This document shows positions 55,079 to 61,203 of a DNA stretch of 64,000 nt, piece after piece. The notes beneath the pieces are model-generated. The model made no database searches. It worked only from the letters and a program-made list of their open reading frames with translations, and was not told the DNA's origin. Position numbers and translations under genes: made by a program. Numbering within the stretch: the first letter of the stretch is position 1; every line of letters begins with the position of its first letter. This DNA is from an uncultured Flammeovirgaceae bacterium (GTDB taxonomy: Bacteria > Bacteroidota > Bacteroidia > Cytophagales > Cyclobacteriaceae), in assembly GCA_937883755.1 (NCBI GenBank), contig CAKZYA010000006.1, positions 1 to 64,000 of the forward strand, in the 5' to 3' direction.

Positions 55079-55201
55079 AAATCCCCCTACCCCCTTTTAT
55101 GAAAGGGGGAGGTAGCAAACGAGTTAAATTAAGCCTATGATGCAAACTTGTAATGCTAGATTATCCATTCCCCCTTTTCCAAAGGGGGGGCGGGGGGATT
55201 T
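55079..55201. repeat. BIME-like inverted pair A (C5/G5 hairpins)
   Basis: Left unit 55079-55110 begins AAATCCCCCTA and contains CCCCCTTT/AAAGGGGG as a hairpin (55090-55097 with 55102-55109). Right unit 55169-55201 is the same design inverted and ends GGGGGGATTT. About 58 bp of unique sequence lie between them. Confidence 0.75.
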
Positions 55202-58123: not shown

Positions 58124-58852
58124 ATGTTTACTACTGCGGCAATATCCTTCTACCGTACAAAGGAATTCACTCAGTTTATCCGCAATACACTGATTATTGT
58201 CAATCAGCACAATCCTACTGAACTTAAGGTAAAAGGCCAATATCAAGAGCTTAATGGGCTATGCCAGCAACTAGAGAAAGCGTATGAGCTAACCGACAAT
58301 AGCCAGCTATCGCTTCAACTCACCCAGCTAGACGAACGTCGCGACCGAGCCATTATCTGCCTACGTACCCTGAGCGAAGGCTACACCCGTTACCCTAAGG
58401 CAGCCCAGCGGGAAGCAGCGGAACAACTGCTGGCGTGTATCAATCGTTACGGCAACCGTCTTTACGCCTTAAATTACAGTGCGGAAACCGCTACGCTTAA
58501 GCAACTGCTAAGTGAGTTGCAAACGCGACCGGAGTATCAGCAGGCGATAGAAACCTTACAGCTAACCGACGTAGTAAACGAGATGAAGCAAGCGAACCAG
58601 GCCTTTGAACAACTATTCGTACAACGGCTAGAAGAAACTAGCCAGTCAGAAGGACCGAGCAACCGTGAGCTGATGCGTCAGGCTACTGAGGCCTACCGTA
58701 AACTGCTGAAGCATATTGAAGCCCACACTACCTTGAACCCTTCAAACGCGTACTTGCTACTCATCGACCATATGAATGAAAATACTACTCACTTTAACGA
58801 AATGGTAGAGCGCCGAAAAAATGCTTCCGCCTCCGAGCTGATTACTGCTTAG
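58124..58852 (+). CDS. DUF6261 family protein
   Basis: A 242-aa cytoplasmic, all-helical protein. The layout LQLTQLDERRDRAIICLRTLSEGYTRYP and AQREAAEQLLACINRYGNRLYALNYSAETATLKQLLSELQ is that of DUF6261, found mostly in Bacteroidota in multiple copies per genome. No enzymatic motif. Function unknown. It lies 38 bp before the C5/G5 repeat pair that precedes the DUF559 gene. Confidence 0.75.
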   Translation: MFTTAAISFYRTKEFTQFIRNTLIIVNQHNPTELKVKGQYQELNGLCQQLEKAYELTDNSQLSLQLTQLDERRDRAIICLRTLSEGYTRYPKAAQREAAEQLLACINRYGNRLYALNYSAETATLKQLLSELQTRPEYQQAIETLQLTDVVNEMKQANQAFEQLFVQRLEETSQSEGPSNRELMRQATEAYRKLLKHIEAHTTLNPSNAYLLLIDHMNENTTHFNEMVERRKNASASELITA

Positions 58853-58889: not shown

Positions 58890-59019
58890 AAATCCCCCTA
58901 GTCCCCTTTGAAAAAGGGGGAAAAAGGGCGCAGTATCACCGATGTGATAATGAATAATTCTGATAATAGGTATTCCTTCGAGCTCCTCCCCCTTTGTAAA
59001 GGGGGATACAGGGGGATTT
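58890..59019. repeat. BIME-like inverted pair B, left of the DUF559 gene
   Basis: Left unit 58890-58921 starts AAATCCCCCTAG and holds CCCCTTT ... AAAGGGGG; right unit 58984-59019 is its inverted partner ending AGGGGGATTT. The spacer of about 62 bp is unique. The pair ends 71 bp before the DUF559 start codon. Confidence 0.8.
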
Positions 59020-59090
59020 GAACACTGCGACTTGAATGTGCAAATGACCTCGTAGTTTGATATACAGTACTAGAATCCACTATCATAGCA

Positions 59091-59456
59091 ATGGCGCAGC
59101 ACTCATATGATAAAAAACTCAAACCACTGGCGCGTCAACTTCGGAATAATTCTACGCCAGGGGAAATTAAACTGTGGAGCGAGGTGCTACGGACACGGGG
59201 TTTTTACGGTTATCAGTTTAATCGGCAGTTTACTATTGGTAACTACATCGTAGATTTCGTCTGCCGAAAGCTCAAGCTGGTGATTGAGCTAGATGATCGT
59301 TCTCACCAGTTTAAAACTGAGCAAGATGCTTTACGCGATCGGTATTTGAGCGACTTGGGATACAGGGTGGTACGCATTGCTGAGTCGGAGGTAATGCATG
59401 ATCTAAACAACGTAATCCGCACTTTAGAAAGCTATTTGCCTAAGGAAGATCAGTGA
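59091..59456 (+). CDS. DUF559 (Vsr-like, PD-(D/E)xK) endonuclease-domain protein
   Basis: A 121-aa protein almost wholly made of the DUF559 domain, related to very-short-patch-repair nucleases. The N-terminal helix LARQLRNNSTPGEIKLWSEVLR is the family signature. The PD-(D/E)xK-like core has Asp55 (NYIVDF), Glu66 and Asp68 (LVIELDDRSH), with His72 after. The stretch DDRSH departs a little from the common DGxxH. It is a single-domain protein with no DNA-binding extension. It is flanked tightly on both sides by inverted hairpin pairs (B ends 71 bp before, C starts 3 bp after the stop), an arrangement like RAYT transposase genes and REP repeats. Confidence 0.88.
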   Translation: MAQHSYDKKLKPLARQLRNNSTPGEIKLWSEVLRTRGFYGYQFNRQFTIGNYIVDFVCRKLKLVIELDDRSHQFKTEQDALRDRYLSDLGYRVVRIAESEVMHDLNNVIRTLESYLPKEDQ

Positions 59457-59458
59457 AG

Positions 59459-59625
59459 AAATCCCCCTGCACCCCCTTTACAAAGGGGGAGAAGCTCATT
59501 GGCACTTTAAATGTTTCTGACTTACCATTGCAATGAGAATTTTTTCACATACAAGATTACTCATTGTGACACTTATGTTGCAATTTCCTCTTTCCCCATT
59601 TCGTAAAGGGGGACTAGGGGGATTT
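59459..59625. repeat. BIME-like inverted pair C, right of the DUF559 gene
   Basis: Left unit 59459-59490 (AAATCCCCCTGC, then CCCCCTTT-AC-AAAGGGGG) begins 3 bp after the DUF559 stop. Right unit 59590-59625 is inverted and ends AGGGGGATTT. The spacer is about 99 bp. Confidence 0.8.
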
Positions 59626-61028: not shown

Positions 61029-61203
61029 AAATCCCCTTAGTCCCCCTTTTGAAAAAGGAGGAAAAACTCATTTGTTTTTCATATTCTTGTTCTTGCTTTA
61101 TCAGTGCATAGAGGATATTTCTTGATTAAGTGAAGTGTAATTATTTATGTATTGATATTACAGCAAACCCGCTCCCTTTTTAAAGGGGGCGTAGGGGGAT
61201 TTT
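61029..61203. repeat. BIME-like inverted pair D
   Basis: Left unit 61029-61061 (AAATCCCCTTAG, CCCCCTTTT ... AAAAAGGAGG, partly decayed); right unit about 61174-61203 (CTCCCTTTTTAAAGGGGG, ending AGGGGGATTT). The right edge lies directly against the stop codon of the barrel gene. The spacer is about 112 bp. Confidence 0.7.

Follow-up and report, generated by a model that had tools for sequence, protein, structure and literature searches.

Introduction

Palindromic repeats of the REP type are among the commonest repeats of bacterial genomes, and their usual partner is a Y1 transposase; we know of no dedicated REP partner other than the Y1/RAYT enzymes. Homing endonuclease genes often, though not always, reside within self-splicing introns or inteins, and the palindromic elements of Rickettsia lie in frame in coding genes. 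In the accessible text of the sources concerned, REPINs are defined (PMC8049555), each tnpA-REP lineage is reported to have its own repeat type (PMC6006769), and a 2013 survey asks whether palindromic repeats without a tag pair with specific DNA-binding proteins (PMC3733652).

The DUF559 family appears in several papers, again as far as their accessible parts go. E. coli YcjD is treated as a PD-(D/E)xK protein related to Vsr (PMC1189080), a DUF559 domain is described as fused to a SPOUT methyltransferase (PMC1829167), and a DUF559 gene is assigned in passing to the EDxHD homing family (PMC9403480). Caulobacter VsrA, also a DUF559 protein, is linked to a solitary cytosine methyltransferase and to DNA damage, and is read as acting in mismatch repair (PMC12907096). 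In the accessible text of the open-access literature we found no description of repeats flanking DUF559 genes, a provisional statement as subscription papers fall outside that coverage. Here we describe a DUF559 gene enclosed by hairpin repeats in a window of 64,000 nucleotides, that is, the whole stretch of DNA that was analysed, and compare it with DUF559 loci of other genomes.

Results

A DUF559 gene between two hairpin pairs

A sequence-only reading of this DNA had proposed that a Vsr-like DUF559 gene is tightly bracketed by inverted hairpin pairs, and this arrangement was borne out when the coordinates were re-derived (Table 1). The ATG of the gene lies 71 bp past the end of pair B, and a gap of two bases separates the stop codon from pair C. 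Both pairs (B, 58890-59019; C, 59459-59625) consist of two units facing one another, and in each unit a short spacer separates the head AAATCCCCC from a C4-5/G5 hairpin, which is imperfect in one case. The same reading had counted four C5/G5 hairpins in inverted pairs; the inverted pairs stand, but the hairpins are not all perfect C5/G5, the B left arm being C4 and the right unit of C imperfect.

Table 1. Positions of the nuclease gene and of the hairpin units in the window
Feature	Position	Strand	Details
DUF559 (PF04480) Vsr-like / EDxHD-type nuclease gene	59091-59456	+	121 aa; PF04480 2.6e-31
REPIN-like pair B, left unit	58890-58921	+	head AAATCCCCC and hairpin; reads AAATCCCCCTAGTCCCCTTTGAAAAAGGGGGA
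REPIN-like pair B, right (inverted) unit	58987-59019	-	hairpin and tail CAGGGGGATTT
REPIN-like pair C, left unit	59459-59490	+	
REPIN-like pair C, right (inverted) unit	59590-59625	-	imperfect hairpin (CCCCATTTCGTAAAGGGGG); end GGGGGATTT
Pair A	55079-55200	.	extra hairpin pair without nuclease gene
Single right-type unit	61165-61202	-	extra unit

By RNA structure prediction, each of the whole pairs B and C would fold into one long hairpin in which AAATCCCCC is joined to GGGGGATTT (-60 and -65 kcal/mol). The two inner units form an inverted repeat of 48 columns in the window flanks, and no long direct repeat common to pairs B and C was found on comparing them. No GTAG or CGTC tag was seen by eye at the foot of the hairpins; the heads are AAATCCCCC in the window and C-run heads in the other hairpins read. 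With a strict hairpin defined by a stem of at least 7, C4 in the left arm and a loop of 2-14, the 64-kb window contains five strict C4/G4 hairpins, compared with 0 or 1 in ten Markov-1 simulations. The upstream neighbour (58124-58852) encodes a DUF6261 protein (5e-38).

The window protein has weaker Pfam matches to PF18741 and RAP, and no match to PF01797, the Y1 HUH transposase, was obtained in the Pfam scan. The residues E25, D55, E66, D68, H72 and D79 are present, and all of them are invariant in the 129 DUF559 domains compared except D68, which is found in 128. An AlphaFold model was computed from four sequences (pLDDT 75.9, pTM 0.68), and with Foldseek the predicted DUF559 fold matches that of the homing endonuclease I-Bth0305I (3r3p, 3.6e-5), as well as 3hrl, titled putative endonuclease-like protein (2.5e-6), and Vsr (1cw0, 1.5e-2).

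Repeat copies in the window genome and the locus in its genus

The window genome, a 7.6-Mb assembly of 75 contigs, has a single DUF559 match and 26 exact copies of AAATCCCCCTN0-12CCCCCTTT; the reversed control pattern has 0. Five of these copies lie at 55079-61202 of contig 6, around the only DUF559 match, where by arithmetic a uniform scatter would place about 0.02. The genome carries the element once, and its repeats are dispersed in about two dozen copies.

Three other genomes of the genus were compared at this locus. G155 has DUF559 at the same place, with a protein identity of 89% and three of the four hairpin units seen, while G125 has no DUF559 match and a different, unrelated gene in the interval. 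A decayed DUF559 copy in G071 (L238), truncated or starting right at a hairpin, lies at another locus than that of the window. Because of these three states, the unit at the window locus is one that was inherited or lost, and no clean empty site was found there among G155, G125 and G071. The empty-site alleles that the sequence-only reading expected were therefore not found at the window locus in these genomes, but unoccupied alleles exist for like units inside LeuRS and MetH, described below. The DUF559 unit of G155 has an IS200-type transposase gene immediately upstream of it (L073 5301-6000), and its pair B showed the right-hand unit alone.

Hairpins are concentrated beside DUF559 genes

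Among the genomes sampled, 131 of 196 in the window's family and 78 of 148 in the phylum have a DUF559 match. For the family, the best 98 by score of 150 listed DUF559 places (more exist) were fetched with their flanks, which together with the window, L074 and L075 gave 101 loci, 73 of them stand-alone genes and 28 with DUF559 within a long open frame. An early scan of relatives with a narrow pattern had given almost no matches because each lineage has its own hairpin sequences.

Next to the stand-alone genes, the density of strict hairpins is 3.11/kb in the first 100 bp and 2.38/kb at 100-200 bp, compared with 0.13/kb at 0.5-1 kb and 0.01-0.02/kb beyond 1 kb. The long-frame copies have 5.45/kb within 100 bp versus 0.04-0.05/kb beyond 1 kb. 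At least one strict hairpin was found within 300 bp at 49/73 stand-alone and 22/28 long-frame loci, and hairpins on both sides within the same distance at 23/73 and 8/28, respectively. When only intergenic DNA is considered, the density is 3.09/kb near DUF559 and 0.075/kb far from it.

Furthermore, we compared DUF559 with other ORFs of the same loci, using the 68 of 73 stand-alone genes that have the 300 bp needed on both sides (the rest were dropped for contig edges). A C4/G4 hairpin lies within 300 bp of 48 of the 68 DUF559 genes versus 4 of 147 other ORFs, and hairpins stand on both sides of 22 versus 0; with a looser C3 criterion the counts are 53/68 and 19/147. A hairpin scan blind to sequence also peaks at DUF559, with 1.94/kb within 150 bp versus about 0.2/kb. 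Of the 73 stand-alone loci, 24 lack any strict C4/G4 hairpin in the 300 bp to either side; among these, the blind scan found a CCC-containing hairpin in 7 cases (CCCTTCTCC and similar) and none in the other 17, several of which are near contig ends. A phylum-wide DUF559 sample has hairpins at 16 of 29 loci; one locus of this sample, L306, is identical with L110 of the family sample and was left out of later counts. Collectively, these results extend the proposed association beyond the window, as it recurs across Bacteroidota, and the hairpins are enriched near DUF559 rather than spread evenly, most of the sampled DUF559 genes having them.

Next, two motifs were searched in the 196 family genomes. 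One of them, AAATCCCCCTN0-6CCCCCTTT, came from the sequence-only reading, and has 149 sites in 29 genomes, at least 15 of which have a listed DUF559 at a distance of 600 bp or less, where 0.048 are expected under uniform placement. The other, CCCCCGCNNGCGGGGG, has 53 sites in 18 genomes, and for at least 22 of these a listed DUF559 is no more than 600 bp away, with 0.031 expected; this CCCCCGC motif was chosen among hairpins known beforehand from DUF559 loci, and its enrichment is therefore not fully independent. Both counts of near sites are lower bounds, as they refer to 150 listed DUF559 places and more exist. The enrichment that had been anticipated was thus found, relative to uniform placement, in this search of 196 genomes.

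Solitary dispersed copies are common, as they are for REPINs, because 134 AAATCCCCCTN0-6CCCCCTTT and 31 CCCCCGCNNGCGGGGG sites are not near a listed DUF559. About 90% of the AAATCCCCC-type sites are away from any listed DUF559, and 10 of the 29 genomes bearing this motif and 2 of the 18 bearing CCCCCGCNNGCGGGGG have no listed DUF559, although some have a weaker, unlisted match. In relatives the repeats are thus strongly enriched near DUF559, but most copies have no listed DUF559 beside them and some genomes carry repeats without a listed gene. One contig (G182:C20:43773-66324) carries eight CCCCCGCNNGCGGGGG hairpins, six of them in 1.8 kb around one DUF559 gene.

The type of hairpin tends to follow the nuclease

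Hairpin classes were defined post hoc, with the data already in view, by stem sequence for the 86 of 129 loci with a nearby strict hairpin. A locus and its nearest nuclease relative in another genome agree in class in 58 of 86 cases (2000 shuffles: mean 16.4, maximum 30), and in 53 of 86 (5000 shuffles: maximum 34) when the relative is the nearest in another genus. When the nearest relative with unrelated gene neighbours is taken, the class is the same in 46 of 86 (shuffles: mean 16.3, maximum 35). Because relatives often share their class while paralogue pairs of the same genome differ in class in 12 of 14 cases, the hairpin type tends to follow the nuclease rather than the genome. Within genomes having several classes, the agreement was 19/24, and 14/24 once shared neighbourhoods were excluded.

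We also compared the left with the right flank at 121 of the 129 loci, the others being dropped for contig edges. With the 99.5th percentile of mismatched pairs as the threshold, 45 of the 121 loci have direct repeats above it and 11 have inverted repeats above it. The 14 best flank alignments are direct repeats 122-280 columns long, and at several loci (L074, L091, L134, L291) the whole hairpin pair is the direct repeat.

Units in frame within host genes, and occupied and unoccupied alleles

The long frames that contain DUF559 (28/101 loci) were identified by Pfam scan in 20 cases and by eye in the other 8. In the 20 scanned frames, Pfam names 13 host families with the unit in frame, either inside or at an end. 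DUF559 lies inside LeuRS, IleRS, MetH, HsdR, HsdM, Eco57I-type and type-ISP frames, and at the end of SpoU methylase, amidohydrolase, inositol phosphatase, N-formylglutamate amidohydrolase, QueG and small methyltransferase frames; in the L104 frame it is the sole Pfam match. The LeuRS insert is placed before the editing-domain match in L096 and L101 and after it in L107. The hairpins translate open in frame, for example as LTPNPSPEERG and TSPSPLERGPGGEV, and no splicing domain was found in the Pfam scans of 20 of the 28 host frames.

For MetH in one genus, 7 of 10 genomes are occupied and 3 unoccupied, the insert having a left unit at one end and an inverted right unit at the other, with stems too short for the strict definition. 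For LeuRS in another genus, 14 of 30 fetched loci are occupied and 16 unoccupied, in a sample (40 genomes, best 30 loci by score) that is biased toward occupied loci. The unfetched LeuRS genes of G199, G209, G219, G221 and G224 are apparently unoccupied, judged by coordinates, and G214 has DUF559 elsewhere in the same LeuRS frame. None of the 14 occupied loci has a second match to the LeuRS host part, and the DFxC...ExDGxxH stretch is kept in all 14 inserts. Because occupancy requires 11 Fitch changes on the LeuRS host tree, no fewer than with shuffled labels (mean 10.2), it appears to carry no phylogenetic signal, as would be expected from rapid gain and loss.

The flanks of occupied and unoccupied LeuRS genes are 80-88% identical (12-20% different), and the junctions are too diverged for a target-site duplication to be read. 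Terminal inverted repeats were seen in the MetH and LeuRS inserts and at Deinococcus plasmid loci. In unoccupied LeuRS loops (L189, L190, L192, L194, L202), other in-frame A/T-rich repeats of the ATTC/AAAATTC type are often present, and because of these the loop may be a permissive spot. Taken together, both the linkage of DUF559 with the hairpins and past mobility are well supported, the latter because units lie in frame in many host genes and because occupied and unoccupied alleles coexist.

DUF559 loci beyond Bacteroidota

Among 43 plasmid records with a DUF559 match, 12 were opened, those of Klebsiella, Neisseria and Pseudomonas being left out. Strict hairpins lie beside DUF559 on at least one side at 9 of the first 10 plasmid loci, namely in Synechocystis (one of two), Picosynechococcus (two), Pseudanabaena (two), Deinococcus (two), Azospirillum and Sphingomonas; C-run hairpins also lie upstream of DUF559 at a second Azospirillum locus. 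A co-occurrence of C-run repeats and DUF559 genes in cyanobacteria, which the sequence-only reading had mentioned, is thus supported on cyanobacterial plasmids. On two Deinococcus plasmids (L317, L320) the DUF559 unit lies antisense in different gaps of one hydroxyphenylacetate gene cluster. In phages, a DUF559 match was found in just 3 of 50,697 records.

In E. coli K-12, the DUF559 gene ycjD has C/G-run hairpin repeats (CCCTCTCCC / GGGAGAGGGTTAGGGTGAGGGG) downstream (L326 2493-3214, ycjD to fabI), and the C-terminus of YcjD (RRSPSP) runs into the first of these hairpins. The median number of places per genome matched by parts of the sapF-ycjD-fabI stretch is 4, and 3359 of 5426 genomes contain at least 80% of the stretch. 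The three E. coli alleles without ycjD that were opened include no clean empty site; they are uninformative because an efflux operon sits at that place (PMC12817139, in its accessible text).

Discussion

It is very probable that the DUF559 gene constitutes one element together with the hairpin pairs on either side of it. That the nuclease is the mover of the repeats we infer with less assurance, leaning slightly to this side. The best reading of the whole, which we consider probable, is a selfish or formerly selfish nuclease-plus-REPIN element, analogous to the REPtron, that would spread by cut-and-repair homing. Under this model, the nuclease would nick or cut its cognate repeat after recognising it as a hairpin or cruciform. 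Repair from a gene-carrying copy, between homologous repeats, would bring the gene and the repeats into the cut site, and the REPIN-gene-REPIN layout would be a suitable donor for such a homing-like cycle. The same cutting might occasionally duplicate or disperse bare hairpin pairs and so leave solitary repeats.

Alternatively, the hairpins might be moved by something else, such as a Y1/RAYT or IS200-type transposase, with DUF559 as its cargo or frequent hitch-hiker. Hairpin-ended units are what Y1 transposases move, a Y1_Tnp match is present in 48 of 60 sampled family genomes, including that of the window, and many repeats lie away from DUF559. However, at 30 Y1_Tnp loci of the same family a C4/G4 hairpin was found within 300 bp in just 3, of other sequence, and hairpins on both sides in none; moreover, the hairpin type follows the DUF559 lineage, and catalytic-type residues are retained in 14 of 14 LeuRS inserts. 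We regard a passenger role as unlikely, and RAYT/IS200 as the mover is unsupported given the 3 of 30 Y1 loci with hairpins. The earlier suggestion that a nuclease stands where the REPtron has its Y1 transposase finds support here, as 27 of the 30 Y1 loci are without such hairpins.

Improbable to the same degree is a domesticated repair enzyme, that is, a Vsr-like or hairpin/cruciform nuclease that maintains C/G-run repeats, has its gene among its substrates for regulatory reasons and is now immobile. Its Vsr-like predicted fold is consistent with such a role, as is Caulobacter VsrA, a DUF559 protein tied to a solitary cytosine methyltransferase and DNA damage in the accessible text of its description (PMC12907096); the window genome has one match only, and G000 and G155 share the locus. 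Against this, units in frame in or at the end of 13 host families, together with patchy occupancy, argue for mobility, and there is no evident reason why a repair substrate should bracket the gene so regularly.

It is very unlikely that the hairpins serve, as terminators or attenuators, to insulate a small toxic gene. Strong hairpins do stand close to both gene ends, but they form inverted pairs whose outer heads are conserved, they are found before the gene and not just after it, and units are dispersed elsewhere in the genome and lie open in frame inside coding genes; this explanation is rejected on the anatomy of the units. Chance or an annotation artefact, in which common intergenic hairpins, such as the 26 dispersed copies of the window genome, happen to flank the gene, is ruled out to a near certainty by the far-flank, other-ORF, intergenic-only and Y1-gene controls, the enrichment being about 40-fold against intergenic DNA only, two-sided hairpins standing at 22/68 versus 0/147 genes, and the motifs being enriched genome-wide hundreds-fold under the uniform null.

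More tentatively, the nuclease-plus-REPIN reading could be widened to a class of mobile element that is widespread and as yet undescribed, a possibility that we take seriously without holding it for the probable case. Its Vsr-like nuclease would home into and multiply its own palindromic repeats, could sit in frame and without splicing inside essential proteins such as LeuRS, and would be the source of many C/G-run hairpins of cyanobacteria, Bacteroidota and proteobacteria, possibly including the repeats next to ycjD in E. coli. If this is true, a PD-(D/E)xK family with its own repeat types would answer, for a large class of repeats, the question of protein partners posed in the accessible text of the 2013 survey (PMC3733652). 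A function would also be suggested for DUF559, a family found in 131 of the 196 sampled family genomes, and nuclease modules tolerated in frame within essential enzymes would be an unusual case. E. coli K-12 YcjD offers an immediately testable representative.

Comparison with known systems

E. coli YcjD resembles the unit described here in being a DUF559 family member with hairpin repeats downstream, and differs in that the three other alleles opened hold an efflux operon instead of a clean empty site. Caulobacter VsrA belongs to the same domain family and has a genetic link to DNA damage, but is interpreted as a mismatch-repair enzyme, and repeats are not discussed in the accessible text of that paper (PMC12907096).

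With Rickettsia palindromic elements, DUF559 units share hairpin repeats that are translated in frame within host proteins, whereas the DUF559 units carry a nuclease gene between the palindromes. The EDxHD/Vsr-like homing endonucleases, with I-Bth0305I, have the closest functionally known fold to that predicted for DUF559, and the patchy occupied and unoccupied alleles in conserved genes (LeuRS, MetH) are a further likeness. Unlike these endonucleases, the DUF559 unit ends in palindromic repeats that are also dispersed as solitary copies, and its 20 Pfam-scanned host frames contain no splicing domain.

In the REPtron (RAYT/TnpA-REP, with an IS200/IS605-like Y1 HUH enzyme), as in the DUF559 unit, a low-copy gene is flanked by inverted hairpin repeats. 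The two are also alike in having repeats dispersed in the genome (for the DUF559 unit, 26 exact copies in the window genome and 149 sites in 29/196 genomes), a repeat type specific to the enzyme lineage, and pairs that fold as REPINs, as computed for the window pairs. They differ in that the enzyme of the DUF559 unit is a PD-(D/E)xK Vsr-like nuclease and not a Y1 HUH transposase, and in that whole DUF559 units lie in frame inside essential genes.
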